From a virus: a stretch of 47,789 bases of DNA. Below the pieces are notes generated by a model, which saw only the letters and a list, made by a program, of their open reading frames with translations, did no database searches and was not told where the DNA came from. The position numbers and the translations under genes were made by a program. The DNA lies in the IMG/VR virus record IMGVR_UViG_3300010370_003461, positions 1 through 47,789 of that record; one strand, written 5' to 3'. Positions 4,893-30,175 of this stretch are shown one piece after another. Position 1 is the first letter of the stretch. The number at the start of each line of letters is the position of its first letter.

Positions 4893-4903
4893 AAAAAATT
4901 AGG

Positions 4904-4911
4904 TATAAATA
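4904..4911 (+). promoter_or_regulatory. T4-type late promoter box (TATAAATA)
   Basis: Exact match to the T4 late promoter consensus TATAAATA in the short gap before the scaffold gene. Transcription would begin around 4917, leaving a leader of about 23 bases with AAAGGAT before the ATG at 4940. The gp55 sigma and gp45 clamp that use such boxes in T4 are both encoded in this window. Confidence 0.75.
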
Positions 4912-4939
4912 TTTACAATCAATAAAGGATCCTTTGATT

Positions 4940-5944: not shown

Positions 5945-5947
5945 TTT

Positions 5948-5955
5948 TCTAAATA
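5948..5955 (+). promoter_or_regulatory. Candidate late promoter box before the capsid gene (TCTAAATA)
   Basis: TCTAAATA lies four bases after the scaffold stop and upstream of the CAGGAGAT ribosome site of the capsid gene. The same 8-mer occurs at 31409 and 43297, each time just before a virion gene, so it may be a variant late promoter of this phage. It differs from T4 TATAAATA at two positions; function is inferred. Confidence 0.45.
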
Positions 5956-5983
5956 ATTTTAACTCACAGGAGATACTTTTAAA

Positions 5984-8668: not shown

Positions 8669-8689
8669 ACAGATGTCCTCCCTTCCTTA

Positions 8690-10198: not shown

Positions 10199-10202
10199 AT
10201 AA

Positions 10203-10210
10203 TATTTATA
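10203..10210 (-). promoter_or_regulatory. T4-type late promoter box for uvsW (TATAAATA)
   Basis: On the minus strand an exact TATAAATA overlaps the stop codon of uvsY (GTA TAA ATA), five bases before the GTG of uvsW. In T4 uvsW is a late gene, so the position makes sense. The predicted transcript start would be very near the GTG, so a leaderless or very short-leader mRNA is expected. Confidence 0.65.
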
Positions 10211-10643
10211 CGATGCCGTTCATCATTTTTTGCCAGTCTATAGCAGACTTTATCATAAAATTTCTATTATTCAAAGACTTTAAAAACTCCTCAATCATTC
10301 TTAACTTTATCTCATTTAAAGAAATTTTAGATTTTAGTTCTATAACTTTTTTATCGGCCTCAATAAACTGTTCAACATCACTCTTTAAAAGAGTAAAATC
10401 ACATGCATCTTCTCCCCATTCCTTTAGCTCATCTTGTGACGCTTTACCAGTATATATTTTCCATTTTCTAAGTTTAAGTTGAGCCAAATCGTTATTGTGT
10501 TTTGTTAAAATTAATTTTACATCAGCTAAAAAAGAAAGATACTTGCTGTGTATCTGTGGTATTTTAATAGACTCTATACCCAGTTCTGTAGAATCTATTT
10601 GAGAATCTTTTGTGATCTGTTGCTTTAGTTCGTCTATATTCAT
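10206..10643 (-). CDS. uvsY: UvsY recombination mediator
   Basis: 145 residues from the ATG at 10643 (T4 UvsY 137); an upstream GTG at 10688 would add 15 residues and is less likely. The family signature is a mostly helical protein with L-R-K-W-K-I-Y-T-G-K-A near 75-85 and D-W-Q-K-M-M-N-G near the end. UvsY loads the UvsX recombinase on gp32-covered single-stranded DNA; the position next to uvsW fits. A TTGACT-N16-TAATAT host-like promoter lies just before the ATG on this strand. uvsX and gp32 are not in the window. Confidence 0.9.
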   Translation of the reverse strand: MNIDELKQQITKDSQIDSTELGIESIKIPQIHSKYLSFLADVKLILTKHNNDLAQLKLRKWKIYTGKASQDELKEWGEDACDFTLLKSDVEQFIEADKKVIELKSKISLNEIKLRMIEEFLKSLNNRNFMIKSAIDWQKMMNGIV

Positions 10644-10650
10644 TAGTTCT

Positions 10651-10678
10651 ATATTAAAGTATCCTTTAAAAAAGTCAA
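10651..10678 (-). promoter_or_regulatory. Host-type promoter candidate for uvsY (TTGACT-N16-TAATAT)
   Basis: Minus strand: TTGACT at 10678-10673 and TAATAT at 10656-10651, 16 bases apart, immediately before the ATG at 10643. It stands back to back with the plus-strand promoter at 10689. Confidence 0.45.
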
Positions 10679-10680
10679 CT

Positions 10681-10727
10681 AAATACACTTGACAACTGAA
10701 TTTTTTATTTTATATTAAAGTGTATTT
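10681..10727. repeat. 10-bp inverted repeat around the divergent promoter region
   Basis: AAATACACTT at 10681-10690 is matched perfectly by AAGTGTATTT at 10718-10727, leaving 27 bases between the arms that hold the plus-strand promoter elements. An 11-bp direct repeat, TATATTAAAGT, also occurs at 10650-10660 and 10711-10721. The region may be an operator or simply AT-rich symmetry. Confidence 0.4.
10689..10716 (+). promoter_or_regulatory. Host-type promoter for the sugar cassette (TTGACA-N16-TATATT)
   Basis: A perfect TTGACA at 10689-10694 and TATATT at 10711-10716, spaced by 16 bases, 23 bases before the ATG of the first sugar gene. The same combination occurs before gp55 at 23132. No T4-type late box was seen here, so early or middle expression is inferred. 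Confidence 0.65.
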
Positions 10728-10739
10728 TGGATAAAAAAT

Positions 10740-11375
10740 ATGATTATAGATTTACGTGAGATACCAGTTATTTGGATCAATTTAGACTCAGCAACAAAAA
10801 ATGCTGAGGCCATGGAAAAAAAACTAAAAGATCATGGTTTCAAATATACTTTTAGAAAATCTGCAAGAGTTATAGAGCCACCAGCGGACACGCATCCGTC
10901 ACTTAGGCACTACGTTGGTTGTGGTCAATCGCATTTAGATATTTTAGAAAATAAAGATTACAAGACTCCATTTTTAATTTTAGAAGATGATGCTGAATTT
11001 ACTCCAGCATTTAATCCAATTTTAAATATACCAGATGATGTAGATGGAGTTTATCTTGGTATTTCCAAAGGAAACATCTACTATCAAACCAGAAGATATG
11101 GTCCAGATTATCTTAGAATTTCTGGAATATTGGCAACACACGCAATTCTTTATATAACTGAAAAGTATAGAGAAGAAATGGCAGCTGTAGATAAACATTG
11201 CATCTATACATTAAAAAAACCATGGGACATAGGCTCTGCTGGTCTACAACAAAAATTTAAAGTATTTACTCCCAGTAAACCATTCTTTTATCAGGCGGAT
11301 GATAGAGAGTCTGCTAATAAATGGGAAGCTTTGACTGACACTCCACTTGAAAATAGAAATAGCCCAGACCTATGA
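10740..11375 (+). CDS. Glycosyltransferase family 25-like protein
   Basis: 211 residues. The I-P-V-I-W-I-N-L-D start, the G-C-G-Q-S-H-L-D-I-L-E motif (about 60-70) and the L-I-L-E-D-D-A-E-F motif (about 79-87) are the hallmarks of GT25 enzymes, which include bacterial lipopolysaccharide galactosyltransferases and eukaryotic collagen galactosyltransferases. The acidic E-D-D is the expected nucleotide-sugar/metal site. It is the first gene after the host-type promoter and overlaps the next gene by four bases. The sugar and acceptor are unknown. The C-terminal D-I-G-S-A-G region is shorter than in many family members. Confidence 0.8.
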   Translation: MIIDLREIPVIWINLDSATKNAEAMEKKLKDHGFKYTFRKSARVIEPPADTHPSLRHYVGCGQSHLDILENKDYKTPFLILEDDAEFTPAFNPILNIPDDVDGVYLGISKGNIYYQTRRYGPDYLRISGILATHAILYITEKYREEMAAVDKHCIYTLKKPWDIGSAGLQQKFKVFTPSKPFFYQADDRESANKWEALTDTPLENRNSPDL

Positions 11376-12160
11376 TAACCTTCAATACAATAGGAAAATA
11401 TGGAAGGTTTGGAAACCAGATGTTCCAATATGCAACTTTATATTCTATTGCAAAAGAAAAGGGTTATGAATTTGGAGTTCCTTTAACAAATCGCAGTGCA
11501 GATGAATATGAAGATTTTTGTTTACAAGATTGTTTTAAAAATTTAAGTGCTAAAAATTCTACTGGTACACAACAAAAACATTTTATTCAAGAAAAATCTT
11601 TTTCTTTTGAGCCAGGATTTTTTGGTATACCTGATAACTCTGACATTGCTGGTTATTTTCAAAGTGAAAAATATTTTAAAAACTATAAAAATGAACTATT
11701 GAAAGAGTTTACTTTTTATCATGATATAAAAAACAAAGCAGAAGATATAAGATCTTTAACAAAAGAACCTGTTATAAGTCTTCATATTAGATTGGGTGAT
11801 TACCTCTACCTACCGAACAGTCACCCAGTTTGTTCTTTAGAATATTATAAAAATGCTTTAGATGCATTACCAAAAGATGTTTTAATTTTTATTTTTAGCG
11901 ATGATATAATAAAAGCAAAAGAAATGTTTTCTTTTATAGAACAAAAACACGTATTTCCAGAAACAAACGATAAATATATTGATATGTGTTTAATGAATAT
12001 GTGCGACTATCATATTATAGCAAATAGTTCTTTTAGTTGGTGGGGTGCTTGGTTAAGCAATTCACAAAAAATTATAGCTCCATCTAAATGGTTTGGTGGG
12101 GCACCAAATATGCCAAAAAATTGGTCAGATGTATATTGTGATGATTGGATAATAATATGA
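11372..12160 (+). CDS. Alpha-1,2-fucosyltransferase-like glycosyltransferase (GT11)
   Basis: 262 residues. Motifs typical of GT11 are G-R-F-G-N-Q-M-F-Q-Y-A (11-21), the GDP-fucose-binding H-I-R-L-G-D-Y (138-144) and the C-terminal N-S-S-F-S-W-W-G-A-W-L segment. Family members move fucose from GDP-fucose to the 2-position of galactose. The donor pathway is only partly present here: a GDP-mannose 4,6-dehydratase is encoded at 23726, but no obvious GDP-fucose synthase is seen, so the host may supply it or the donor may differ. Start and stop overlap both neighbours as ATGA. Confidence 0.88.
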   Translation: MITFNTIGKYGRFGNQMFQYATLYSIAKEKGYEFGVPLTNRSADEYEDFCLQDCFKNLSAKNSTGTQQKHFIQEKSFSFEPGFFGIPDNSDIAGYFQSEKYFKNYKNELLKEFTFYHDIKNKAEDIRSLTKEPVISLHIRLGDYLYLPNSHPVCSLEYYKNALDALPKDVLIFIFSDDIIKAKEMFSFIEQKHVFPETNDKYIDMCLMNMCDYHIIANSSFSWWGAWLSNSQKIIAPSKWFGGAPNMPKNWSDVYCDDWIII

Positions 12161-12933
12161 AATCTACAGTTATAACTGCTTTGTATGATATAGGTAGAGA
12201 CAAAAATGGTGATGGGAGAACTATAGATCAATATCTTGAATGGTTTGCAAAAACACTTAAGTTAAATGTTCCCATGGTCATTTATACTGAAGAAAAATTT
12301 CAAACTTTTATAGAAAAACAAAAACAAAATAATTTAAAAATTATTGTTAAACCTTTATCTCAAATACCATATTACAAATATAATTCTAAAATAATTTCTA
12401 TATTAAATGACCCAATTTACAAATCTAAAATTGTAGATCCAAATCGGATTGAGTGTAATCTATCATTATATAATATTATTCAATATTCAAAATTTGATTG
12501 GATTGTTGAAGCAATTCAAAATAACTATTTTGATACTGATTACTATTTTTGGATGGATGCTGGATGTAGTAGATTTTTTCAAGATGTTAATTTAGATAAA
12601 GAGTGGCCAAATAATTACAATATATTATCTAAAGATAAATTTAATATTCAAGGAAACTCAAACACAGTTTTTTACAAAATTAACGATATTGAAAACTATG
12701 TTTGGGACTCAAACTGCATACTAGTAGGAACTCTTTTTGGTGGAACAAAAAATGTGTGCATTGATATGGCTAGGAGAGTTAACGAGCAATTTGAATTGTA
12801 TTTAAATAATAATATAGTAAACAATGAACAAATAATATTGGGATATATTTACAAAAATAATCCAGAATTGTTTAATGTATATATTGAATTGTCTGGAAAT
12901 CATTTACCAATATTTAAAAAATTAGGAGAATAA
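12157..12933 (+). CDS. HtrL/YibB-like protein, putative glycosyltransferase
   Basis: 258 residues from the ATG at 12157, chosen because it overlaps the previous stop (ATGA); a TTG four codons upstream is possible. The family pattern is visible: V-I-T-A-L-Y-D-I-G-R at the N-terminus, P-M-V-I-Y-T-E-E near 39, and Y-Y-F-W-M-D-A-G-C-S-R-F-F near 130. HtrL/YibB proteins are found in lipopolysaccharide and capsule loci and are regarded as glycosyltransferases with poorly known specificity. It is embedded in the sugar cassette and is followed by a clear ribosome site (AGGAG) for the next gene. Confidence 0.78.
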   Translation: MKSTVITALYDIGRDKNGDGRTIDQYLEWFAKTLKLNVPMVIYTEEKFQTFIEKQKQNNLKIIVKPLSQIPYYKYNSKIISILNDPIYKSKIVDPNRIECNLSLYNIIQYSKFDWIVEAIQNNYFDTDYYFWMDAGCSRFFQDVNLDKEWPNNYNILSKDKFNIQGNSNTVFYKINDIENYVWDSNCILVGTLFGGTKNVCIDMARRVNEQFELYLNNNIVNNEQIILGYIYKNNPELFNVYIELSGNHLPIFKKLGE

Positions 12934-12936
12934 AAA

Positions 12937-14502
12937 ATGAAAATTGTTAGTATTTTTGGTGGTCATGATGCAAATGTAACTTTTGTCGATACAGAAAAAA
13001 ATAAATATCATGTCATTGAAATAGAAAGACTAGTAAAAAAAAGATATTATCGTTTACATGGTGATTCACCTCAAACTATATTTGAAATTTTTTATAATTG
13101 TCAAAAAATTGCAGAAAAATATTGGAATTTTGATAATGATTATGATACATTAGTATTTGTAAAAGATGGTTGGATAGATTTACAAATTGTTTCTTCGGTT
13201 TTTAAATTTAAAAATATACAAGTTGAAGACCATCACCATTCACATGCAGCGTGTGCATTTTATCAATCCCCCTTTTCAGAATCAATGATAATATCGTATG
13301 ATGGAGGTGGTAATGATGGATTTTTTAATATTTATTTGGCAACAGATAACGGAATTACTCTGGTAGAAAAAATTAATTCTGATTTTGGTGGTGGTTATTT
13401 ATTGTTATCCTCTTGCTGTTCCGAAATAGCAAAGAGCAGTAAACACATGTTATCACTTGCGGGAAAAATGATGGGATTGTGCGCATATGGTAAAACAGAT
13501 TCAAAAAAAATAAAAATTATGAGAAATCTTTTTATAGATAAAAATTATAAAAAAGTTTCAGAATTAGGAAATTATAATTTAAAAAATGTAGATAATCCTT
13601 GGGACAATCCTTTAGAAAATTATATTTTTGAAGGTCAAGAGTCATTTGATTTTGCAGCAAATGCCCAAAAAGCATATGAAGATATGTTTTTAGAAATTTT
13701 TAATTTATTACTTAATAAGTATAATCCAAAAAATATTTGTTTGACTGGTGGTGGTGGACTAAATGTTTTATTAAATCAATATATTAAAAATAATTTTAAT
13801 TTAAATATATTTGTACCACCAAATCCAAATGACTGTGGTTTATCAATAGGTGCAGCATTTTTAACACACAAGCCAACAAATAAAATTAATATTGCATATA
13901 AAGGAATACCTTTATTGGATATTGATTATAAAGAAAAATTATTACAAAATAGAAAGACTGAACCAGTTAATTTAGAAAAAGTATGTCAATTGTTAAAATC
14001 AGGAAAAATAATTGGTGTATGTCAGGGTGATTCTGAAGTTGGACCAAGGGCATTAGGTAATAGAAGTATTATATGTGACCCTTCATATAAAAATATGAAA
14101 GATATTTTAAATGCAAAAGTAAAATTTAGAGAGTGGTATCGACCATTTGCTCCATTTTGTCTAGAAGAGGACGCCTCAACATATTTTGAAAGTAAAGACT
14201 TTAACAATATGGAATTTATGGGATACGCGCCAATTGTAAAAAAAGAATATAGAGAATCTTTGCCCTCTATAACTCACGTAGATAACAGCTCACGACTGCA
14301 AACAGTATCAGAATCCTCCCATAAATTTTTCTATGATCTATTAAGAGTTTACAAAAATTTTTCAAATATTCCAGTTTTGTTAAATACCTCATTTAATATA
14401 AGAGGAAATCCAATATTGACAACCATCGAAGATGCTTTGTATGTGTTAGATAATACGGAATTAGATTACGTCATCATCGAAGAGACTTTAGTGTGCAAAT
14501 GA
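12937..14502 (+). CDS. Carbamoyltransferase of the NodU/CmcH family
   Basis: 521 residues. The N-terminal Kae1-like half shows G-G-H-D-A-N near 9-14, the H-H-H-S-H-A-A-C motif near 99 with the expected catalytic His, and I-S-Y-D-G-G-G-N-D near 120. The C-terminal YrdC-like half has D-S-E-V-G-P-R-A-L-G-N-R-S near 364-376, W-Y-R-P-F-A-P near 401 and L-L-N-T-S-F-N near 488. Family enzymes use carbamoyl phosphate and ATP to carbamoylate a hydroxyl, often on a sugar (as on Nod factors). It lies in the sugar cassette, so a glycan substituent is likely. It overlaps the next gene by ATGA. Confidence 0.92.
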   Translation: MKIVSIFGGHDANVTFVDTEKNKYHVIEIERLVKKRYYRLHGDSPQTIFEIFYNCQKIAEKYWNFDNDYDTLVFVKDGWIDLQIVSSVFKFKNIQVEDHHHSHAACAFYQSPFSESMIISYDGGGNDGFFNIYLATDNGITLVEKINSDFGGGYLLLSSCCSEIAKSSKHMLSLAGKMMGLCAYGKTDSKKIKIMRNLFIDKNYKKVSELGNYNLKNVDNPWDNPLENYIFEGQESFDFAANAQKAYEDMFLEIFNLLLNKYNPKNICLTGGGGLNVLLNQYIKNNFNLNIFVPPNPNDCGLSIGAAFLTHKPTNKINIAYKGIPLLDIDYKEKLLQNRKTEPVNLEKVCQLLKSGKIIGVCQGDSEVGPRALGNRSIICDPSYKNMKDILNAKVKFREWYRPFAPFCLEEDASTYFESKDFNNMEFMGYAPIVKKEYRESLPSITHVDNSSRLQTVSESSHKFFYDLLRVYKNFSNIPVLLNTSFNIRGNPILTTIEDALYVLDNTELDYVIIEETLVCK

Positions 14503-15464
14503 AATTTAAAAAAATAATTATTTGGGGACATCCACTTTATTCCCATACACATTCTTATATTCACGAAGCATATTATAAAGCCTTTAAACATTTAAATTAT
14601 GATGTTTATTGGTTCGATGATAATAATTATCCAAAAAATTTTGATTATACTAATTGTTTATATATCACTGAGGGATTTGCAGATAAAAATATACCCATAA
14701 ATAATACTTCTTCTTATTTTGTAATGTATTGTCCGTCACCGATAAAATATCAAGAAGCTAAAAAATTTATTGATGTTAGAACAACAGGAATTGATATAAA
14801 AGATCATATATATGATTATTCTGTTGATTATAAAAATTTTAAAAATGTAGGTTGTGGTTGCTATTATCAAGAAAAAACAAAAGAAAAAATTCATTTAAAA
14901 AACAATTATCATGATTATATTATAGAAGATTATGATAAGTTTTATATAAGCTGGGCTACAAATCTACTACCACATGAAATTGATTTTAATTCTATGTATA
15001 AAGAAAGAACTAATAAAATTTATTATTGTGGAACTATTTCTGGAGGCGGTGTATGTGAAAATTATTCTGTTTTTATTCCTTTTATAGAAGAATGTGTTAA
15101 AAATAATATAAATTTTATTCATAATGATCCTTGGAAAAATCCAATCCCTTCCGAGAAAGTAATTCAAAGAATACAACAATCAATATTAGGAATTGATTTA
15201 AGAGGACCAGAACATATAAAAACTAAAATTATTACTTGTAGAGTATTTAAAAATATAAGTTATGGACATTTGGGTTTAACAAATTCGGAAACAATATATA
15301 ATATTATGGATGGAAATTGTGTTTTTAATTCAGATGTTAAAGAATTATTTTATCAAGGATTAAAAAATAAAGACAATTACAAATTAATTAAAAAAGGTAT
15401 GGAATACGTAAAAGAAAACCATACGTACATCAATAGAATAAATTCATTACTTTCAATTTTATGA
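14499..15464 (+). CDS. Putative glycosyltransferase (unassigned family)
   Basis: 321 residues from the ATG at 14499, which overlaps the carbamoyltransferase stop. The protein opens with a beta strand and G-H-P (I-I-I-W-G-H-P), and has a central N-K-I-Y-Y-C-G-T-I-S-G-G-G segment (about 170-182) and a C-terminal L-G-L-T-N-S-E-T-I-Y segment (about 261-270). This layout resembles a two-domain GT-B glycosyltransferase, but no family-specific signature was recognised. It is strongly AT-rich. Its stop overlaps the next start (ATGA). The role is inferred from context. Confidence 0.55.
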   Translation: MKFKKIIIWGHPLYSHTHSYIHEAYYKAFKHLNYDVYWFDDNNYPKNFDYTNCLYITEGFADKNIPINNTSSYFVMYCPSPIKYQEAKKFIDVRTTGIDIKDHIYDYSVDYKNFKNVGCGCYYQEKTKEKIHLKNNYHDYIIEDYDKFYISWATNLLPHEIDFNSMYKERTNKIYYCGTISGGGVCENYSVFIPFIEECVKNNINFIHNDPWKNPIPSEKVIQRIQQSILGIDLRGPEHIKTKIITCRVFKNISYGHLGLTNSETIYNIMDGNCVFNSDVKELFYQGLKNKDNYKLIKKGMEYVKENHTYINRINSLLSIL

Positions 15465-16402
15465 AAAATATATTAATAATAAATCATACTGTTCAAAATT
15501 GTGGTGTATATCAATATGGAAAAAGATTTGCTCATATAGCCAAAAAATCAAATAAAATAAATTTTTTATATTACGAATTATCTAACTACGACGATTTAAA
15601 AAATGTAATAAAAGAAACCAATCCTTGTGCAATAATTTATAATCATTTGAGAGGGACTATGCCATGGGTGACAGACATTCAAGTTAAAGAAATAAGAAAA
15701 CAAAATATAAAACAAGGTTTAATTGTTCATAATGTAGGTTATGAAACTTTTTTTGATTTTTATCTGCACCAAAATCCAGATTATAAAGAAATAGAAAATA
15801 ATTTTTCTTTGTGTAGACCTTTGTTTGATTACAAGCCAAATAAAAAAATAGTAGAACCAGATGTCATAAACATTGGAACTTTTGGTTTTGGATTTCACAC
15901 AAAGCACTTTGATGCAATTGTCGGAATAGTGAATAATGAATTTAAAAATGAAAAAGTTAATTTAAATTTTCATTTAACAATATCACATTTTTGTCCAAAT
16001 GAAAATATTATCGGTAACATAAAAAATAAATGTTTAAGTTATATTACAAATAAAAATATTAAATTAAACATGACAAACAATTTTATAACTGATGAAGAAT
16101 TGTTGGATAGATTATATAATAACGATTTGAATATCTTTCTGTATGAAAAGTATACATCGTACAATGGGATATCATCATCTATAGATTATGCGCTTTCTGT
16201 CAAAAAACCAATCGCAATATGCAAGAGCAACATGTTTTCTCACATATATAATGTAGAACCTTCTATATGTGTGGAAGATAGCTCATTAAATAACATAATA
16301 GCAAATGGATTTGAGCCATTAGAAAAAAAATATAATAGTTGGACGCATGACAATTTTGTGAATAAATTAGAAAATGTAATGGGAAAAATTTTATATGTAT
16401 AA
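15461..16402 (+). CDS. Putative GT-B glycosyltransferase
   Basis: 313 residues. The N-terminus (N-I-L-I-I-N-H-T) with G-V-Y-Q-Y-G-K-R and the second-domain opening I-G-T-F-G-F-G-F (about 145-152) match the two Rossmann halves of GT-B enzymes such as GT4. Near the C-terminus S-S-I-D-Y-A-L-S-V-K-K-P corresponds to the donor-binding region. The usual E-x-x-G-x-x-x-x-E motif is not intact (S-S-S-I-D replaces it), so activity or specificity is unclear. The next gene starts eight bases before this stop. Confidence 0.6.
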   Translation: MKNILIINHTVQNCGVYQYGKRFAHIAKKSNKINFLYYELSNYDDLKNVIKETNPCAIIYNHLRGTMPWVTDIQVKEIRKQNIKQGLIVHNVGYETFFDFYLHQNPDYKEIENNFSLCRPLFDYKPNKKIVEPDVINIGTFGFGFHTKHFDAIVGIVNNEFKNEKVNLNFHLTISHFCPNENIIGNIKNKCLSYITNKNIKLNMTNNFITDEELLDRLYNNDLNIFLYEKYTSYNGISSSIDYALSVKKPIAICKSNMFSHIYNVEPSICVEDSSLNNIIANGFEPLEKKYNSWTHDNFVNKLENVMGKILYV

Positions 16403-17000
16403 TTCAGATGCAAAACAAGATGAATTTGTTGCAAACATTTTAAATTTTAAAAAGGATGGTACATACGTTGATATTGGGAGCTGTGGTTCCAGAGAATCAA
16501 ACAACTCTTATTATTTTGATACCGAACTTAATTGGAAAGGTATATGCGTAGAAATAGAAAAATCTTACGAGCCATCATATACTTCAAGAAAAAATTGTAA
16601 ACTCATTATTGGTGATGCTACCAAATTAGATTACAAAAAAATATTTGAAGAACAAAATTTTTCAAAACAAATCGACTATCTTTCGCTTGATGTTGACACA
16701 TTAAGCCTTTCTGTTTTAAAAATACTACCATTTGATGAATATGATTTTAAAGTAATAACAATTGAACACGACTCATATCTTTATGGGGATACTTACAAAA
16801 AACCACAAAGAGATTTTTTGCAAAATAAAGGTTATACCGTATTATGTTCAGATGTTTATGTAGAACAGCCGGGTTATTATGGGAAACAGTATTCATTTGA
16901 AGATTGGTATGTTTATCCAAATTTTTTTGAAAATGATTTAATAACAAAATTAAAATGTGAGTCAATATATCCTTCAAAAATAATTAATAAATTTAATTAA
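16395..17000 (+). CDS. FkbM-like methyltransferase (copy 1)
   Basis: 201 residues. The start T-Y-V-D-I-G-S-C-G-S-R-E-S-N-N-S-Y (about 24-40) and G-I-C-V-E-I-E (about 50-56) are the SAM-binding strands of FkbM-type methyltransferases, which often O-methylate sugars. S-L-D-V-D follows near 99. It overlaps the previous gene by eight bases; no strong ribosome site is seen, so translation may depend on coupling. It lies inside the sugar cassette with a second FkbM-like gene at 21556, so two separate methylations are possible. Confidence 0.75.
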   Translation: MYNSDAKQDEFVANILNFKKDGTYVDIGSCGSRESNNSYYFDTELNWKGICVEIEKSYEPSYTSRKNCKLIIGDATKLDYKKIFEEQNFSKQIDYLSLDVDTLSLSVLKILPFDEYDFKVITIEHDSYLYGDTYKKPQRDFLQNKGYTVLCSDVYVEQPGYYGKQYSFEDWYVYPNFFENDLITKLKCESIYPSKIINKFN

Positions 17001-17001
17001 T

Positions 17002-17721
17002 ATGAGTTTAGGTGCTTTTTATACTTGTTATAATGAACAAAAGGCTGTAGAATATTCAGTCGTAAATTTAAATATCCATTATCCGGGTATTAAAACTTAT
17101 TTAGTAACAGAAGGAAATATAGACTATTCTTATTTATCAAAACCATATCCAAATTTAATTTCTATTAATGAAGAAGACACACTAAGTTTTAATAAAAAAA
17201 TTACAGATCAAAATTATAAAAAAGAATATTTTCAAACTGCAATTTTAAAATCGACAGAGGCAACAATCAATAGATTAAAAAAAGCAATTGATTATTGTAA
17301 AACAGAATATATACTTATGTTGGATCCAGATACACTTGTTAATGGAAAACTAAACATACCATCAAATAGTAAACTTTTAGGTTCTAGAATAAATTCTGGA
17401 TTTCCAACAGATTTTAAAAATCTTCTTTCCTCTATAGAGGGAGCAAAAGTAATAAACAATTGGGGAGCAACCCCTGCAATATTTAACTGTGAATATTTTT
17501 TAAAAGCATGCAATAAATTAGAAATGCATCCAGATTTATTAAAGGAATTTTGTAAAACTTTTTATGCAATTTTTGCTCATGATGTTTTACTTCCTTTACT
17601 TTTTGCCTTAATAGGAGAAGAAGAAACGTTTAATCCAGATATTATAGAATGTTCTAGAACTCCAGGGTGGCAGTCATCGGACAAACCTTTAATTCACCAA
17701 TTTAGAAAGTATTATAATTAA
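17002..17721 (+). CDS. Putative GT-A fold glycosyltransferase
   Basis: 239 residues. It begins like a nucleotide-sugar enzyme (L-G-A-F-Y-T-C-Y-N-E) and carries Y-I-L-M-L-D-P-D-T-L-V (about 105-115), where D-P-D is a plausible metal-binding D-X-D. The C-terminal acidic H-D-V-L-L-P segment near 194 could hold a catalytic residue. I could not assign a CAZy family. It starts one base after the preceding stop and ends one base into the next ATG, so it belongs to the same operon. Confidence 0.6.
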   Translation: MSLGAFYTCYNEQKAVEYSVVNLNIHYPGIKTYLVTEGNIDYSYLSKPYPNLISINEEDTLSFNKKITDQNYKKEYFQTAILKSTEATINRLKKAIDYCKTEYILMLDPDTLVNGKLNIPSNSKLLGSRINSGFPTDFKNLLSSIEGAKVINNWGATPAIFNCEYFLKACNKLEMHPDLLKEFCKTFYAIFAHDVLLPLLFALIGEEETFNPDIIECSRTPGWQSSDKPLIHQFRKYYN

Positions 17722-18626
17722 TGAAAACAGCATTTATTACTGGTATAATGGGGCAAGATGGCACATATTTAAAAAAAATTCTTTTAGAAAAAGGATACAA
17801 GATTGTCGGTTTTGATAAATTTGTTTATAATAATTTTGATATTGAGTATGAGTGTGTAGATTTGAGCGACTATAAAACGGTTTTATTTTTAATAAAAAAA
17901 TATAAACCACAAGTTATATTTAATTTGGCTGGTGTATCAGATGTTTTTGATCCTTGGAATAACATTTCTGAAATAACTTCAAGCAATATTTTGATTCCAC
18001 AAAATTTTATAAAGGCTATAATATATCAAAATCCAGAAATAATATTTTGTCAAGCCTCATCTTGTTTGGTTTTTGGAAAAACTAAAACAAAAATACAGTC
18101 AGAAACAACACCTAGAGAGCCGATTTATCCGTATGGATTTTCTAAAAATTTTATAGATGGTATAATAAAAGAATACCGCGAAGAAAAGGGATTTAATTTT
18201 TGCTCTGGTATATTTTATAATCACGATTCTCCTTATAGAGGAGAAAATTTTTTTATAAAAAAAATAATTTCTTTTGCAAAACAAATAAACCAAAATACCA
18301 AAAAAATAAATTTTTATAATTTAAATGTAAAAAAAGATTTAGGTTATGCAGAGGATTATATGGAAGCTTTTTATTTAATGTCACAAGAAAAAAAAGTTGA
18401 TGATTATATTATATCAAGTAGTAAGTTAACAAATCTAATGGATGTTGTACAACAAGTTTCATCTTTGTCTGGTCATAATCTGTTGGATTATATTGAAATA
18501 CATACTGATGTAAAGCATAGCGATAATTGTTTATTTGGTGATAATACTAAAATACAAAAAAAATTAGGATGGTCTCCAAAAACAGCTTATGCTGATGTTG
18601 TAGAAAAAATATGGAATAATTTTTGA
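17721..18626 (+). CDS. NAD(P)-dependent sugar dehydratase/epimerase, divergent GDP-mannose dehydratase paralogue
   Basis: 301 residues. It begins with T-G-I-M-G-Q-D-G-T-Y-L, nearly the same as the gmd product at 23726, and keeps the Y-x-x-x-K motif (Y-G-F-S-K, about 137), S-S-C near 115 and a degenerate N-H-D-S-P-Y-R-G-E block (about 172). It lacks the R-R-S-S-S-F segment that gmd enzymes use for NADP binding and oligomer contacts. It is therefore an extended short-chain dehydrogenase acting on a nucleotide sugar. A GDP-6-deoxy-sugar reductase or epimerase is one possibility. Function is inferred from similarity and context. Confidence 0.72.
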   Translation: MKTAFITGIMGQDGTYLKKILLEKGYKIVGFDKFVYNNFDIEYECVDLSDYKTVLFLIKKYKPQVIFNLAGVSDVFDPWNNISEITSSNILIPQNFIKAIIYQNPEIIFCQASSCLVFGKTKTKIQSETTPREPIYPYGFSKNFIDGIIKEYREEKGFNFCSGIFYNHDSPYRGENFFIKKIISFAKQINQNTKKINFYNLNVKKDLGYAEDYMEAFYLMSQEKKVDDYIISSSKLTNLMDVVQQVSSLSGHNLLDYIEIHTDVKHSDNCLFGDNTKIQKKLGWSPKTAYADVVEKIWNNF

Positions 18627-18650
18627 TATTTTCTAGATTTAAGTTATATT
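18623..18650 (+). promoter_or_regulatory. Host-type promoter candidate inside the cassette (TTGATA-N16-TATATT)
   Basis: TTGATA at 18623-18628 and TATATT at 18645-18650 with a 16-base spacer, in the 40-base gap before the methyltransferase at 18667. The 11-mer TATATTATAAT here is identical to the one before gp55 at 23154. A ribosome site AAAGGA follows. Confidence 0.45.
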
Positions 18651-18666
18651 ATAATAAAGGATAAAC

Positions 18667-19896
18667 ATGGATACAGAATGCAATTTATTGTCGCTTCAGA
18701 GTCTTTATGTCTCAGATTTTTTAAATGATAATGAAAAACCAAGAGGTGGAAAATACCCTCTGGATATTATTTTGGATGAAACCATAAGCGCCCCTAGATT
18801 AAAAACTGTTGCCCCATCTGGGGTAATGTATGGAAAATACTGGTATAGATCTGGAATAAACAATTCGATGAAAATAGAATTGAATAATATTGTTGAAACA
18901 ATTAAATCACGATTTAAATTGGTAGAAAATGATATTTGGCTTGATATTGCTTGTAATGATGGAACATTACTTTCTTATGTTCCAAAAACTTGCATACGTA
19001 TAGGTATTGATCCAGCAGATGATTCATATGTTAATGAATCAAAGCAGCATGCAAATGTAATTATTCAAGATTATTTTTCACTTAATGCTTGGCAAAAAAC
19101 CTCATTTGCCCAACAAAAAGCAAAAATAATAACATCTATTGCGGTATTTTATGATTTAGATGATCCGATCTCATTCGTAAATGATATCAAAAAAGTACTG
19201 TCAAAAGATGGATTATGGGTTTTGCAATTAAGTTATACTCCACTCATGATAAAGCAATTAGCATTTGACAATATTTGCCATGAACACGTATATTATTATT
19301 CTGTAGAAAATTTAAAAATACTTTTTGAAAAATGCGGAATGGAAATAGTTGATGTTGAATTAAATGATGTTAACGGCGGATCTTTCCGAGTATTTGTTAT
19401 GCATAAAGATGGGGATAAAACAAAGTATGGAACTGCCCCACTCAGAGATGTTGCATCATACAGAGTAGAATCAACACTGCAATATGAAAAATTATTAAAT
19501 CTCTCATCTCCACAAACTTGGAATAATTTTAAAAAGGAAATTGATTCTCTAAAAGAACAGGTTGTTTCTTTCATCAAAGAAGCAAAAAAACAAGGAAAAA
19601 CAGTTTGGGGATACGGTGCATCAACAAAGGGCAATACATTACTTCAATATTTTGGTTTAGACCATACCACAATTGATGCAATAGCAGAAAGAAGCCCATA
19701 TAAATGGGGACTAAAAACTGTTGGAACAAATATTCCAATTAAATCTGAAGCTGAAATGCGAACAGCGCAACCAGATTATTTGTTAGTATTGCCTTGGCAT
19801 TTTATTTCAGAATTTATAGAAAGAGAAAAAAATTATCTTGGAAGGGGTGGAAAATTTATAGTTCCATGCCCAAGTTTCAAAATAATAACTTTATAA
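18667..19896 (+). CDS. C-methyltransferase-like sugar methyltransferase
   Basis: 409 residues. A central class I SAM domain shows W-L-D-I-A-C-N-D-G-T-L-L (about 91-102) and H-E-H-V-Y-Y-Y near 206. The C-terminal domain has W-G-Y-G-A-S-T-K-G-N-T (about 315-325), as in C-methyltransferases of deoxysugar pathways (TylC3-like). Family members usually open with a short Zn-binding domain containing several Cys; here the N-terminus has one Cys (C5) and no obvious Zn cluster. The gap of 40 bases upstream is the largest in the cassette and holds a promoter candidate. Confidence 0.8.
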   Translation: MDTECNLLSLQSLYVSDFLNDNEKPRGGKYPLDIILDETISAPRLKTVAPSGVMYGKYWYRSGINNSMKIELNNIVETIKSRFKLVENDIWLDIACNDGTLLSYVPKTCIRIGIDPADDSYVNESKQHANVIIQDYFSLNAWQKTSFAQQKAKIITSIAVFYDLDDPISFVNDIKKVLSKDGLWVLQLSYTPLMIKQLAFDNICHEHVYYYSVENLKILFEKCGMEIVDVELNDVNGGSFRVFVMHKDGDKTKYGTAPLRDVASYRVESTLQYEKLLNLSSPQTWNNFKKEIDSLKEQVVSFIKEAKKQGKTVWGYGASTKGNTLLQYFGLDHTTIDAIAERSPYKWGLKTVGTNIPIKSEAEMRTAQPDYLLVLPWHFISEFIEREKNYLGRGGKFIVPCPSFKIITL

Positions 19897-19902
19897 TTTT
19901 TT

Positions 19903-20871
19903 ATGAAAATAGCTTTAATCGGTCCCGGTATTATGCCCATCCCCCCACAAAACTGGGGGGCCGTAGAAAGCCTTATATGGGATCAATATGAATATTTAAA
20001 ACAACTAGGACATGAAGTTGAAATTATTAATACTAGAGATTTACATTCTGTAGCAAATTACTTAAATAGTTCGGATCATGATTTTATTCATGTTCAATAC
20101 GATGATCATGCAGATTTTTTAAGTAATGCATTAAAAAAACCTTTTTGTACTACAACACATTATGGTTATATTAAAGAGCATTATCCAGAATATCATGGTT
20201 GGAAACATATCTTTGAAGGTGTGTTAAAAAGCACAGGTATAATAGCTCTTTCACCAGAAATAGAAACTTTATTTAAAAATGCTGGTTATTCTAAGTTTAT
20301 AAAAACATTAAGAAATGGTGCAAGAACAAAAGATTTTAGATTTAGTACATGTGCACCAAAAAATGCTTTATGTTTAGGTAAAGTAGAACCAAGAAAACGG
20401 CAATCAGATTTATCAAATATTTGTTCTGATAAATGTAATATAGATTTTATAGGTCCTGTTATTGACTATAATTTTAAAGAAAATAATACATGCAAATATG
20501 CTGGTGTATGGGACAAACCAACACTTTATAATAATCTTACAGAATATAAATGTTTAATTTTATTAAGCGATGGTGAAGCTGCACCATTAGTTGTTCCAGA
20601 AGCTTTGTCTGCTGGTTTGAGTTTAGTTGTGTCTAAAACGGCAGCAGCAAATTTGGATACATCTTTACCATTTATACATGTTCTTGAAAATGGTTTAGAC
20701 GAAACATCTCCAGAAATAATAAACAAAGCAATAAATGAAAACGCTCAGTACAGACAAAGTATAAGAAATTACGCAGTCTCTTATTTTGATTGGTCTGTTA
20801 TTTGCAACGAATACATAGATATAGTGAAAGAATTTATAAATGAAAATAGCATTTGTAACAATAGCAACTAA
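19903..20871 (+). CDS. Glycosyltransferase family 4-like protein
   Basis: 322 residues. The N-terminus I-G-P-G-I-M-P-I-P-P followed by G-A-V-E-S-L is typical of GT4 enzymes, as is the C-terminal donor domain with L-G-K-V-E-P-R-K-R (about 155-165) and P-L-V-V-P-E-A-L-S-A-G (about 228-238). The latter includes the E-x(7)-E-like region, with the first Glu in S-D-G-E-A. GT4 enzymes transfer sugars from nucleotide donors with retention. Its last 32 bases overlap the next gene, a tight arrangement. Confidence 0.82.
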   Translation: MKIALIGPGIMPIPPQNWGAVESLIWDQYEYLKQLGHEVEIINTRDLHSVANYLNSSDHDFIHVQYDDHADFLSNALKKPFCTTTHYGYIKEHYPEYHGWKHIFEGVLKSTGIIALSPEIETLFKNAGYSKFIKTLRNGARTKDFRFSTCAPKNALCLGKVEPRKRQSDLSNICSDKCNIDFIGPVIDYNFKENNTCKYAGVWDKPTLYNNLTEYKCLILLSDGEAAPLVVPEALSAGLSLVVSKTAAANLDTSLPFIHVLENGLDETSPEIINKAINENAQYRQSIRNYAVSYFDWSVICNEYIDIVKEFINENSICNNSN

Positions 20872-21547
20872 TAAATATATTAGTTTAGCTGAAAATTTAT
20901 TAAATTCTATGAGTAGATTTGCATTCATGGATGCAAATATAAAAACAGATTTATTTGTGTTTTCAAATATTCCACAAATATTTGAATTAAAAAACGGAAG
21001 AATAAAAACTAAAGGGATAATGACAACACACGTCCCATTTCCTTTAATTTCTTTACTGAGATATCATTATTACTCTAGTTGTCAAGAATTAGAAGAATAT
21101 GATTATATATTTCATATAGACTGTGATATGCAAATGGTTGATAATGTTGGTAGTGAAATTCTAGGGGAACGTGTATGCGTACTGCATCCAGGATTTGCAA
21201 CTAGACAGAATCCAGAAATATACCCATATGATAGAAATGAATCTAGCAATGCCTATGTAAAAAATGGAGATGGGGTGTTATATTATCAAAATTGCTTTCA
21301 GGGTGGATCGTCTAAAGAATTTTTAAAAATGTGTAATGCCATTAAAGATAGATGCGAAGAAGATTTAAGAAAAAATTATATTGCATTGTGGCATGATGAA
21401 AGTTATATGAATAAATATATGATAGAAAATACACCAACAAATATTTTACCACCAACATACGCACAGCCACAAAACTGGCCTCCTTACGGTAAAACAAAAA
21501 TATTACATATAGTTAAAAATCACTTACAAATAAGAAAAACAAATTAA
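20840..21547 (+). CDS. GT6 (ABO-type) glycosyltransferase-like protein
   Basis: 235 residues, about the size of the compact GT6 catalytic domains found in bacteria. The Y-D-Y-I-F-H-I-D-C-D-M-Q segment holds a D-X-D (D94 and D96) as in animal GT6 enzymes. R-Y-H-Y-Y near 74-78, H-P-G-F near 115, Y-Y-Q-N-C-F-Q-G-G near 147 and W-H-D-E-S near 184-188 also agree with GT6 (alpha-1,3-galactosyl/GalNAc transferases related to the ABO blood-group enzymes). I recall that most bacterial members have N-X-N instead and that a cyanophage GT6 has been described. The specific sugar and acceptor are not visible. Confidence 0.82.
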   Translation: MKIAFVTIATNKYISLAENLLNSMSRFAFMDANIKTDLFVFSNIPQIFELKNGRIKTKGIMTTHVPFPLISLLRYHYYSSCQELEEYDYIFHIDCDMQMVDNVGSEILGERVCVLHPGFATRQNPEIYPYDRNESSNAYVKNGDGVLYYQNCFQGGSSKEFLKMCNAIKDRCEEDLRKNYIALWHDESYMNKYMIENTPTNILPPTYAQPQNWPPYGKTKILHIVKNHLQIRKTN

Positions 21548-21555
21548 AGGTTTAA

Positions 21556-22212
21556 ATGTATAATATTTCAAAAACATGCCAAATTCAAAATTTAAATAAA
21601 ATTTATGAAAAATATTTTGGATATAGGTCTAGCGGCCATTTTGTTGAAGTTGGTGCATATGATGGAGAATCTTTTTCAAATACTTCTTGTCTAGCTGATA
21701 GTGGCTGGCAGGGCTTATATATAGAGCCAATTAAAGATTTTTATTTACATTGTATCGATAGACACAAAAATAATAATGTAATATGTGAAAATTATGCTAT
21801 TGGTCCTGAAGAAAATATAAAAGAAATAATAAAATATGGCCCTTTATCTACGCTAAGTGATAGGCAGTATGAAATGTTTAAAACAGTTGGTTGGATAGAT
21901 GATGCTTTTGCTACAAAAGAAACTTGTAATATTATTAGATTAGATAAACTTATGGAAAAAAATGGTATACCCAAAGAATTTGATTTACTTGTTGTTGATA
22001 CAGAGGGAAATGAAAATGAAGTGTTTAAGTCGTTTGATCTTAATATATGGAAGCCAAAAATGATGATTGTTGAAATAGAAGACGAACATGAAAGTTTTCA
22101 ACAATTTAAAAAATATGTTTTTGAAATGGAAACTTTGACAGAAACTCTTATAAATTATAATTATAAAATAGTTTACAAAGATCAAATAAATACAATTTTT
22201 ATAAAAAAATAA
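21556..22212 (+). CDS. FkbM-like methyltransferase (copy 2)
   Basis: 218 residues. The SAM-binding start F-V-E-V-G-A-Y-D-G-E-S-F-S-N-T (about 30-44), G-L-Y-I-E-P-I near 54 and the L-L-V-V-D-T-E-G-N-E motif (about 144-153) match the FkbM family. It is only distantly like the copy at 16395. It has a good ribosome site (AAAGG) and sits between the GT6-like gene and the epimerase. A sugar O-methyltransferase is likely; the target is unknown. Confidence 0.82.
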   Translation: MYNISKTCQIQNLNKIYEKYFGYRSSGHFVEVGAYDGESFSNTSCLADSGWQGLYIEPIKDFYLHCIDRHKNNNVICENYAIGPEENIKEIIKYGPLSTLSDRQYEMFKTVGWIDDAFATKETCNIIRLDKLMEKNGIPKEFDLLVVDTEGNENEVFKSFDLNIWKPKMMIVEIEDEHESFQQFKKYVFEMETLTETLINYNYKIVYKDQINTIFIKK

Positions 22213-22226
22213 ATTAGGAAAAAAAT

Positions 22227-23135
22227 ATGAATTGTCTAGTAACAGGTGGAGCAGGATTTATAGGATCAAATTTAGTAGATACACTGTTAAAACAGGGTCA
22301 CACGGTAGTTGTAATAGATAACGAGTCATCTGATGCACACGATCAGTTTTACTGGAATGAGCAGGCTTACAATTACAAATATAATGTTTGTGATTATGTT
22401 ATGTGTTCTGAGGTATTTGAACGTCACTCACCCGATGTGGTTTTTCATATAGCCGCAGAAGCAAGAATACAGCCTTGTATCGAAGATCCATTAAAAGCAG
22501 TTGAGGCAAATGTTTTAGGCACGGCAACTATATTGGAACTTTCTAGAAGATATAAAGTAAAGAGAGTTATGTATTCATCAACATCTTCTGCATATGGTTT
22601 AGTGAATGACTCTCCATCAAAAGAGGAAATGAAGAATGATTGTTTGAATCCTTATTCAGTAACAAAAGTTGCTGGAGAAGAACTCTGTAAAATGTATACA
22701 AATCTTTTTAATTTAAATACTGTAATTTTTAGATATTTTAATGTTTATGGAGAGCGACAACCAATCAAGGGACAATATGCACCAGTCATTGGTATATTTC
22801 AAAGACAAAAAAGAAATAATGAAACTATGACAATTGTTGGTGATGGAGAACAAAAACGAGACTTTGTTCATGTTTCTGATGTTGTTGCCGCAAATATAAT
22901 AGCAGCAACAAAAAATTTTGGAGAGGATTATAACTTTGGTCAACTCTATAATGTTGGCACGGGAGTAAATTACTCTGTAAATGAGATAGCAAAGATGCTA
23001 GGTGGACCAACAATGAATATTACTCCAAGACCCGGAGAAGCCAGAATAACATTGGCAGATAACACAAAAATAAAAAGAGATTTGGGTTGGGAACCAAGGA
23101 TTTCTTTGGAACAATGGTTATCACCTAATGGTTGA
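22227..23135 (+). CDS. NAD-dependent sugar-nucleotide epimerase (GalE-like)
   Basis: 302 residues. The N-terminal G-G-A-G-F-I-G-S-N (7-15), the catalytic S-T-S-S-A-Y and Y-S-V-T-K (about 148-152), Y-F-N-V-Y-G near 170 and the R-D-F-V-H-V-S-D-V motif near 212 are those of extended short-chain dehydrogenases acting on UDP- or dTDP-sugars, such as UDP-glucose 4-epimerase or a 5-epimerase. It is the last gene of the cassette and ends just before the gp55 promoter. It may supply a galactose- or GalNAc-type donor for the GT6- or GT25-like enzymes. The exact epimerisation is not determined. Confidence 0.85.
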   Translation: MNCLVTGGAGFIGSNLVDTLLKQGHTVVVIDNESSDAHDQFYWNEQAYNYKYNVCDYVMCSEVFERHSPDVVFHIAAEARIQPCIEDPLKAVEANVLGTATILELSRRYKVKRVMYSSTSSAYGLVNDSPSKEEMKNDCLNPYSVTKVAGEELCKMYTNLFNLNTVIFRYFNVYGERQPIKGQYAPVIGIFQRQKRNNETMTIVGDGEQKRDFVHVSDVVAANIIAATKNFGEDYNFGQLYNVGTGVNYSVNEIAKMLGGPTMNITPRPGEARITLADNTKIKRDLGWEPRISLEQWLSPNG

Positions 23136-23159
23136 CATATACAATATATCCTGTATATT
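23132..23159 (+). promoter_or_regulatory. Host-type promoter for gp55 (TTGACA-N16-TATATT)
   Basis: TTGACA at 23132-23137 overlaps the stop of the preceding epimerase gene, with TATATT at 23154-23159 and 16 bases between. TATAAT at 23159-23164 overlaps it but has a poor spacer. The predicted start is near 23166, the GTG of gp55, so the mRNA may be leaderless. Confidence 0.65.
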
Positions 23160-23165
23160 ATAATT

Positions 23166-23729
23166 GTGAAAAAGAAGAAAAAGAAAAAGTCAAAGCCATC
23201 TGATGCTGATTATGTAGATAATCAGGCTCTGTATGGTGCTTTAGTAGACTATAAAAAAAAGTGTAAAGATGCAGACTCCAATGGAAAAAAGAAACCAAAG
23301 CTTCCAGATTATATTGGTGACTGCATACTAAAAATAGCAACCCGATTATCATACAGACCAAATTTTGCAAACTACCCATATAGAGAAGAAATGGTTTCTG
23401 ATGGTGTACTAAACTGCATAACCTATATTGATAATTTTGATCCAAAACTTTCAACCAGCCCATTTGGTTATCTAACCCAAATATGCTGGTTTTCTTTTGT
23501 TCGTATAATAAATAAAGAGAAGAAAGAAAAATACACACAATACAAATTTGCAGAACAGCAAAATAATAAAGACTTCCAAAATTGGTTTAATGAAGTTTAT
23601 GCTGGTGTTGATGTGGGCCGAAAAGACTTTTTTGGTTTGACAGATTCAGACATGGAAAGATTTGATAAACTCTGTGTACCAAAAAAAGCTAAAAAAACAA
23701 GAATAAAGAAAAATTCATTAGATATATGA
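23166..23729 (+). CDS. gp55: Late-transcription sigma factor, gp55
   Basis: 187 residues, similar to the 185 of T4 gp55, the divergent sigma that directs RNA polymerase to TATAAATA late promoters together with gp33 and the gp45 clamp. The [11 protein letters not shown] start, [10 protein letters not shown] near 60, E-E-M-V-S-D-G-V near 73-80, N-F-D-P-K near 90, and [10 protein letters not shown] near 102 match the family. The N-terminus is a poly-Lys run; the likely start is GTG 23166. Its last bases overlap the ATG of gmd. T4-like boxes elsewhere in the window are consistent with its role. Confidence 0.93.
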
Positions 23730-24745
23730 AAACAGCATTTATTACCGGAATTTCTGGACAAGATGGTAGTTACCTTACGGATTTGTTATTAACAAAGGGA
23801 TATACTGTTCACGGTTTATTAAGAAGAAGTTCTTCTTTTAATACGGGTCGTTTGGAACATATTATTAATGATCCTGATGTTTATAATAAAACTTTTTTTC
23901 TTCATTATGGTGACTTGACTGATTATAATAGCATTCAAAGTATTGTTTCAAAAATAGAACCCGATGAAGTGTACAATCTCGGAGCACAAAGTCATGTAAA
24001 AGTATCATTTGACATGCCAATTTACACTGGTATTGCCGATGGTATCGGCACACTCAATACTTTAGAAGCTGTAAAAGAGCAACAAAATATTTCTAAAAAA
24101 CAAATAAAATATTATCAAGCATCTAGCAGCGAGATGTTTGGAAAAGTGCAAGAAGTACCTCAAAAGGAAACAACGCCATTTTACCCAAGATCTCCGTATG
24201 GATGTGCAAAAGTATATGGGCATCAGCTTACTGTAAATTACAGAGAAAGTTATAATTTACATGCATCTTGTGGTATACTGTTTAATCATGAAAGTCCAAG
24301 ACGGGGAGAAACATTTGTTACAAGAAAAATTACAAGAGCCGTTGGAAGAATTTATTATGGACTACAAAGTGATTTAAGATTGGGAAATTTAGAAGCATTG
24401 CGTGACTGGGGTTATGCTGGTGATTATGTTGATGCCATGTGGAGAATAGTACAACAAGATACTCCCGATGATTATGTTATAGCTACAGGAAAAATGATAT
24501 CTGTAAAAGAGTTTTGTCATTATGCATTTGGTTTAGTTGGGTTAGACTATAATAAGTATGTTATAGTAGATTCAAAATATTTTAGACCAGCTGAAGTAGA
24601 TGAACTTTTGGGCGATTCTTCAAAAGCAAGACAAAAACTTAATTGGATGGCAACAACAGATGTATTTCAATTAGCAAAAATGATGGTTGATTCTGATATG
24701 GAATTAGCAAAAAAAGAATACGTGTTAAAGAAAAACGGACTCTAA
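23726..24745 (+). CDS. gmd: GDP-mannose 4,6-dehydratase
   Basis: 339 residues, the normal Gmd size. It converts GDP-mannose to GDP-4-keto-6-deoxymannose, the precursor of GDP-fucose, GDP-rhamnose and related donors. Visible motifs: [11 protein letters not shown] (7-17), R-R-S-S-S-F-N-T near 33-40, S-S-S-E-M-F-G near 133, Y-G-C-A-K near 155-159 and N-H-E-S-P-R-R-G-E near 186. The start overlaps the gp55 stop (ATGA), so expression is probably coupled to late sigma synthesis, which is unusual for a metabolic gene. The GT11-like enzyme in the cassette could use its product after reduction. A more divergent paralogue lies at 17721. Confidence 0.95.
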
Positions 24746-30167: not shown

Positions 30168-30175
30168 GGATGACT

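Follow-up and report, generated by a model that had tools for sequence, protein, structure and literature searches.

What is a long run of sugar genes doing between uvsY and the late sigma factor gene gp55 of a T4-like phage from water, and which molecule might carry the glycan? These questions are raised by IMG/VR virus record IMGVR_UViG_3300010370_003461, a 47.8 kb record that was analysed over its whole length (47,789 nucleotides; the window). At positions 10740-23135, 14 consecutive intact glycan open reading frames (ORFs; g01 to g14) of 201-521 aa are located on the plus strand, between uvsY on the minus strand and gp55 on the plus strand. An earlier inspection of the DNA (the sequence-only reading) had taken this cassette for one coherent pathway for the making of a modified glycan, not a random set of genes. 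Comparison with relatives and with unrelated phages suggests that it is very likely a functional glycan pathway that can be swapped. The T4-type core of the window includes Gp23 (4e-130), Portal_T4 (7e-168), UvsY, a UvsW-like helicase, gp55, gp47/46, and a Gp44-type clamp loader. Loci and genomes of relatives and other phages are numbered L### and G###, respectively.

A fixed site with variable contents

In total, 160 loci were retrieved by means of gp55 and uvsY, and 20 distinct IMG/VR relatives, together with the window, span the site. The uvsY-gp55 site is occupied in all 21 distinct cassettes, over 6.4-13.9 kb, and these intervals usually have a lower GC content than their flanks. The cassettes contain 260 ORFs (at least 90 aa), all 260 on the plus strand, with a coding density of 91-101%. 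The ORFs form 97 clusters, including 54 singletons. Enzymes of the glycosyltransferase families GT25 (17 of 21 cassettes) and GT11 (16 of 21) are typically genes 1 and 2; short-chain dehydrogenase (SDR) enzymes, present in 18 of 21, are typically close to gp55. For the 84 clusters that the window lacks, a Pfam search with a single representative per cluster matched 73 families. These include GT2, GT10, GT15, NeuB, UDP-GlcNAc 2-epimerase, DegT aminotransferase, thiamine pyrophosphate (TPP) enzymes, and many methyltransferases. The 14-gene block is not a fixed core, in line with the earlier reading: the contents vary in nearly every relative, and the site is always occupied.

Several other arrangements were observed. 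One relative's cassette (A1 cluster) encodes a strong ketopantoate hydroxymethyltransferase-like protein (5.6e-96), which is unexpected in a glycan locus. At the same site, the deeper relatives L188 and L190-L192 (about 3370-7300; uvsY about 50%) carry two to three GT25 paralogues near GT11 and GT6. In the more distant T4-like loci L033 (8988-10368) and L037 (16500-17880), a GT25-GT11 pair forms a unit about 5-6 kb beyond gp47, not beside uvsY.

Replacement between relatives and recurrence in unrelated phages

The loci were scored for ten families from the variable middle. Where gp55 is at least 88% identical to that of the window (ten loci, some of them short), none or one of these families is shared. 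L002, whose gp55 is 95% identical, has GT11 in common with the window and none of the ten. The loci L166-L172 were found by searching with genes 6 and 8, and those two families are therefore ascertained, while the others are not; these loci share 4-8 of the ten variable families at 28-65% identity, in a related but shuffled order, together with GT11 and often gmd. The genomes G010 and G008 have psbA/psbD or a psbA-type end and are cyanophages; their cassette occupies another site. In G007, Gp23 and a UvsW of 45% are present; G009 (126.8 kb) gave no Gp23 or UvsW match. These features suggest that the hosts or lineages differ. Close relatives thus have the variable middle exchanged as a whole, and much of it is found again in unrelated phages. 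Unrelated phages with the cassette at other sites, psbA/psbD cyanophages among them, share 7-8 of the ten families, and this recurrence is the best sign of the coherent pathway that was first proposed.

Partial sharing was also found within the clade. L111 and L024 share g03, g05, g08, g11, and g12 with the window, with g11 and g12 adjacent; in L111, g11 and g12 are 79% and 75% identical while uvsY is 72% identical. This partial sharing shows exchange by modules.

Selection and function

The ratio of nonsynonymous to synonymous substitutions (dN/dS) over 220 unsaturated gene pairs has a median of 0.13 and a maximum of 0.45, and clusters with pairs at dS below 0.8 likewise stay below 0.45. Catalytic motifs are kept, such as EDD in the GT25 set, the HxRxGDY-type motif in the GT11 set, and DXD in all 21 GT6 sequences listed. 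The conserved cassette genes are intact and under purifying selection. Their common orientation, motifs, and low dN/dS suggest that the genes are not inactive, which also agrees with the earlier reading.

In 2010 it was undecided whether the cyanophage clusters were functional or stuffer DNA (PMC3037559). The same paper raised the stuffer possibility for cyanophage lipopolysaccharide (LPS) clusters, and the window cassette, being AT-rich and highly variable, might likewise be a neutral and functionless passenger that fills the head during headful packaging. However, neutral DNA would hardly account for 260 of 260 co-oriented ORFs at such coding density, for the absence of any pair above 0.45 dN/dS, for catalytic motifs preserved across cassettes, or for many identical enzyme families that co-occur in unrelated phages. 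The neutral explanation is extremely improbable. Purifying selection, the promoter frame described below, and recurrence in unrelated phages argue directly for function.

Promoters, edges and origin of the locus

The cassette is framed by the following features.

10206-10688, minus strand: uvsY (Pfam UvsY 1.1e-27), the fixed left anchor; divergent from the cassette and adjoining it in all relatives covering the site
10689-10716, plus strand: sigma70-type promoter TTGACA-16-TATATT, ahead of cassette gene 1
23132-23159, plus strand: second sigma70-type promoter TTGACA-16-TATATT, 34 nt ahead of gp55
23166-23729, plus strand: gp55 late sigma factor, the right anchor; tblastn matches to late sigma factors of Kyanoviridae and others
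23726-24745, plus strand: gmd, GDP-mannose 4,6-dehydratase (TIGR01472, 503 bits versus a cut-off of 415); catalytic Glu kept

A TTGACA-16-TATATT/TATAAT element is found 42-51 nt ahead of gene 1 in most relatives, and it is kept where gene 1 is not GT25 (L003, L096, and L132). An element like the gp55-proximal promoter, at the same distance, is found in many relatives, not in all. With promoters at its start and before gp55, the cassette is bracketed by sigma70-type promoters; the promoters stay and the genes change. The host-type promoter that the sequence-only reading placed at the cassette start is the element at 10689. Expression of gp55 solely by read-through from the cassette promoter was rejected for the window, because the second promoter lies directly before gp55.

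Gaps between the 14 genes range from -32 to +14 nt with a single exception of +40 nt, so the near-overlapping joins described earlier were confirmed. The figure for AT-richness was also exact: at 12421-12480, G and C account for 13 of 60 bases, and the cassette has 28.0% GC versus 36.0% for the whole window. The proposed boundaries (10740-23135) hold for the 14 genes but miss gmd, whose start overlaps the end of gp55 by ATGA and which is found before or after gp55 in relatives. The glycan system runs past gp55; gmd belongs to it, and gp55 is embedded in the glycan run.

The earlier view that the cassette was inserted between uvsY and the late sigma factor gene was correct in part. The two genes are 2.6 kb apart in P-SSM2. 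Compared with cyanophages, uvsW, uvsY, and the gene at 8021-8668 stand in inverted orientation, and more distant T4-like phages have uvsY, uvsW, a small gene, and gp55 co-directional without a cassette in between. This trio is inverted in the window clade; the locus therefore arose together with an inversion and not by a simple insertion. The inverted block (8021-10688) contains uvsY, uvsW, and a phrog_527/phrog_471-like gene, which is named 'methylamine utilization' in cyanophage records.

Gene families of the cassette

Families were assigned by Pfam search, except for g06 and g08, which were folded with their relatives by AlphaFold and compared by Foldseek. Sequence profiles of these two genes gave only chance matches in the PDB, and fold prediction was therefore used. 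Model confidence is given as pLDDT, the AlphaFold score.

10740-11375, plus strand: g01, GT25-like glycosyltransferase with an LEDD motif; the most conserved cassette gene (17/21 cassettes)
11372-12160, plus strand: g02, GT11 (alpha-1,2-fucosyltransferase-type) with HxRxGDY; Pfam 1.1e-25; 16/21 cassettes, motif conserved
12145-12933, plus strand: g03, HtrL/YibB-like, probable glycosyltransferase; Pfam 2.9e-20
12937-14502, plus strand: g04, NodU/TobZ-type O-carbamoyltransferase; Pfam C-terminus 1.1e-59, TobZ 9.9e-45 in the PDB search
14493-15464, plus strand: g05, GT-B-like glycosyltransferase; Pfam Glyco_trans_1_2 0.005 (weak)
15461-16402, plus strand: g06, GT-B glycosyltransferase without a Pfam family; pLDDT 66 (moderate), Foldseek mainly GT-B
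16395-17000, plus strand: g07, FkbM-like methyltransferase; Pfam Methyltransf_21 1.3e-4, slightly below the cut-off
17002-17721, plus strand: g08, GT-A glycosyltransferase without a Pfam family, conserved DPD; pLDDT 90.6, Foldseek best GT6, then GT8/glycogenin
17721-18626, plus strand: g09, GMD-like SDR with ASSCLVFG in place of the dehydratase Glu; SDR Pfam about 1e-60
18667-19896, plus strand: g10, sugar C-methyltransferase; Pfam Methyltransf_14 6.8e-48
19903-20871, plus strand: g11, GT4-type glycosyltransferase; Pfam 1.6e-5, under the cut-off
20840-21547, plus strand: g12, GT6 (ABO/alpha-1,3-Gal(NAc)-transferase-type) with DXD; Pfam 2.4e-33
21556-22212, plus strand: g13, FkbM methyltransferase; Pfam 1.6e-19
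22227-23135, plus strand: g14, GalE-like nucleotide-sugar 4-epimerase with STSSAYG and YSVTK; SDR Pfam about 1e-60

The assignments of the 14 genes in the sequence-only reading were borne out, g06 and g08 by their folds and the others by Pfam. The match of g01 alone to the GT25 profile is weak (0.007, 16.6 bits, cut-off 24); 15 of the 17 members of its family match PF01755 (best 8.3e-7), which places the family in GT25. In the PDB search, the sole match of the g01 GT25 profile is Mimivirus R655 (9crz, E 1.8e-9). The g12 search found BoGT6a and the human ABO transferases, which places g12 in GT6. The g04 protein carries the conserved motifs HHHSH, GPRALGNRS, and NTSFN. Homologues of g05 are 58-65% identical in unrelated phages and relatives. 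L181 and L184 also have g09 next to g10, the latter at 81-87% identity, and g11 and g12 are adjacent in 18 loci.

Proposed sugar chemistry

The families and individual residues suggest a possible chemistry for the glycan. The dehydratase Glu is retained in the gmd product (ASSSEMFG) and replaced by Leu in g09 (ASSCLVFG); g14 has the epimerase pattern. The Leu makes g09 more likely a reductase or epimerase acting on the same product than a dehydratase; it is probably a 4-keto-6-deoxysugar reductase or epimerase. Gmd would generate GDP-4-keto-6-deoxymannose, which g10 may C-methylate and g09 may reduce to a branched GDP-6-deoxyhexose. Such a series of gmd, C-methylation, and 4-keto reduction fits the gene neighbourhoods of L166, L167, and L171, in which gmd is followed by a C-methyltransferase and then an SDR. 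The g14 enzyme may supply UDP-Gal(NAc) for GT6 and perhaps GT25. GT25, GT11, GT6, and five other glycosyltransferase-like proteins would build an oligosaccharide, which may end in an ABO/H-like structure (6-deoxyhexosyl-Gal capped by alpha-Gal(NAc)). In keeping with such a terminus, the GT11 and GT6 genes lie side by side in L167, L171, L172, and the cyanophages DSL-LC02, DSL-LC03, and B23. The FkbM-type methyltransferases and the NodU/TobZ-type enzyme would then attach methyl and carbamoyl groups. Nearly all bacterial GT6 enzymes have NXN and are metal-independent, and two cyanophage GT6 were known in 2014 (PMC3961637); the phage GT6 set, with its DXD, is predicted to be metal-dependent.

The acceptor of the glycan

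Searches for a flippase (PF01943) and an initiating phosphoglycosyltransferase (PF02397) each gave 0 matches in 12 contigs (controls 13/14 and 9/14, respectively). No clear membrane segment was found among the 260 cassette proteins, three of which have one borderline transmembrane-like stretch. Among the 84 other clusters, the 25 commonest Pfam families likewise include no such assembly protein. With neither of these two enzymes nor a clear membrane protein encoded, assembly of the glycan is probably cytosolic. The thymidylate-synthase/dCMP hydroxymethylase family (PF00303) was also without a match in seven clade contigs of up to 137 kb (control 9/14 genomes). These absences argue against a self-contained membrane polysaccharide and against DNA glucosylation of the T4 type.

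There is about an even chance that the locus is a modular set of cytosolic enzymes for a variable, methylated and carbamoylated glycan with a branched deoxysugar, most likely placed on virion proteins. Early in infection, the sugars would be added one by one to fibre or capsid proteins at the virion surface, and each phage would gain a distinct, swappable surface 'serotype'. Precedents are the capsid and tail-tube glycans of mycobacteriophages (Freeman et al. 2023, as cited in PMC12619734) and the chloroviruses, in which most viral glycosyltransferases are predicted to be soluble and cytosolic (PMC9614988). The virion as acceptor, taken by itself, falls somewhat short of an even chance. A fuller proposal can be made only tentatively: a dedicated serotype locus, whose cytosolic pathway may glycosylate the phage's own virion proteins (possibly collagen-like fibres) and may be diversified by swapping whole pathways across lineages with different hosts.

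Remodelling of the host surface is a serious, though less probable, alternative, in which the enzymes would change the host LPS or O-chain during infection and so keep other phages from superinfecting the cell or progeny from re-adsorbing. It is the published view for P-SSM2 (PMC2984593) and for pelagimyophage islands (PMC7029224). The sigma70-type promoter points to early expression through the polymerase of the host, and GT25 is annotated as an LPS-associated family. However, the membrane-anchored transferases and flippase of Gtr-type seroconversion modules are missing, and a shared host LPS acceptor is less natural for a pathway that is similar in psbA/psbD cyanophages and other lineages. 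This recurrence across phage lineages tilts the balance somewhat to the virion. For the host of the window clade, Gp23 was scanned against 84,980 genomes; the one match (49%), on a contig of a Chloroherpeton metagenome-assembled genome, is uninformative, and no psbA-type match was found in three 126-137 kb relatives. One of the large relatives (G001, 137 kb; L197 18637-18915) carries a permuted tmRNA (RF04321, 81.8 bits) and about ten tRNA genes. An acceptor that is neither the virion nor the host LPS or surface seems unlikely.

T4-like phages include DNA glucosylators, and phage carbamoyltransferases that act on DNA have been described; the sugars might therefore decorate modified phage bases against restriction. 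However, DNA hypermodification was rejected on the PF00303 result in seven contigs, no sign of modified or glycosylated DNA was reported in cyanomyoviruses (PMC2984593), and enzymes for 6-deoxysugars and methylation suit cell-surface or virion-surface glycans better than DNA. Glycosylation of DNA is very improbable.

As a special case of virion glycosylation, GT25 might start the glycosylation of giant collagen-like tail fibres, in parallel to Mimivirus. The Mimivirus protein R655 that the GT25 profile matched is a putative collagen glycosyltransferase (PMC9546862). The window contains a 3345-aa collagen-like fibre gene (33264-43301) with 727 Gly-X-Y triplets, dominated by GIQ and poor in lysine, and each of the eight clade members checked had collagen-like ORFs, with up to 576 consecutive GXY triplets. 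However, GT25 is also a family of LPS enzymes, and an acceptor role through hydroxylysine is hard to reconcile with so few lysines, with a 2-oxoglutarate-Fe(II) hydroxylase match in one of ten contigs (one family tested), and with G001, which has a giant collagen-like fibre and no GT25. The collagen proposal was kept as a minor and rather improbable alternative. The run of 576 consecutive triplets, in L209 (4451-11461), is mostly Thr-ended. A separate GT2 glycosyltransferase gene (window 30170-31396) is a neighbour of the collagen-like fibre genes and lies at a distance from the cassette.

Several points weigh against the proposed virion serotype locus. The glycan and the acceptor are predicted from genes, most relatives are represented by contig fragments, dS is high in many cases (to about 3), and for several glycosyltransferases the Pfam match is weak. 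A GDP-fucose synthase was not identified, which makes the deoxyhexose a tentative assignment. GT25, GT11, and HtrL occur in LPS gene clusters too, and the cyanophage and pelagimyophage authors favour a change of the host O-antigen (PMC2984593, PMC7029224). The missing flippase and ligase genes are not decisive, because the phage could use the host's own. For the collagen acceptor in particular, the window fibre has GXQ triplets and the L024 fibres have GXT, yet L024 shares five variable families with the window.

Comparison with known systems

The LPS clusters of P-SSM2, S-SSM7, S-SM2, and ACG-2014f likewise contain same-strand glycosyltransferases, nucleotide-sugar SDRs, and methyltransferases. 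P-SSM2 has homologues of the window gmd (55% identity), GT11 (39%), GT6 (39%), GT25 (32%), and GalE-like SDR (52%), and its GT6 and GT25 genes overlap. However, the T4-like cyanophage clusters lie near hli03/psbA or phoH (PMC3037559), whereas the window cassette lies at uvsY-gp55, and identity is about 27-60%. The accessible accounts of those clusters describe no fixed frame of promoters and edge genes. The pelagimyophage host recognition cluster is also a hypervariable, replaced island with LPS-type genes in T4-like phages (PMC7029224); it is located between VrlC and gp14 and mixed with tail fibres, whereas the window locus contains purely glycan genes and has a conserved left edge.

Bacterial O-antigen and capsule loci resemble the window locus in their fixed flanks and edge genes, swapped central glycosyltransferases, nucleotide-sugar genes at the edge, and low GC. 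In contrast, the window locus is phage-borne, and no Wzx-type flippase or initiating phosphoglycosyltransferase was found in it. Gtr-type serotype conversion modules consist of a membrane flippase and membrane transferases, which the window clade lacks (3/260 proteins with a transmembrane-like stretch). Chloroviruses, Mimivirus, and mycobacteriophages have soluble viral glycosyltransferases, nucleotide-sugar enzymes, and methyltransferases, which are clustered in Mimivirus (PMC9614988, PMC4691112; Freeman et al. 2023, cited in PMC12619734). However, their enzyme sets belong to other families, and for the window system a particle glycan is a prediction. The uvsY-gp55 site, the fixed frame of promoters and edge genes, and the sharing of whole pathways with unrelated phages appear to be new; no earlier description was found in a literature coverage that is incomplete.

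Glycan clusters of T4-like cyanophages have been known for two decades, and the present results argue for their function. The uvsY-gp55 locus defines a place where the question of the acceptor is testable. New soluble enzymes can also be drawn from the GT6, GT11, and C-methyltransferase sets. Should the virion prove to be the acceptor, these phages would own an O-antigen-like serotype system.

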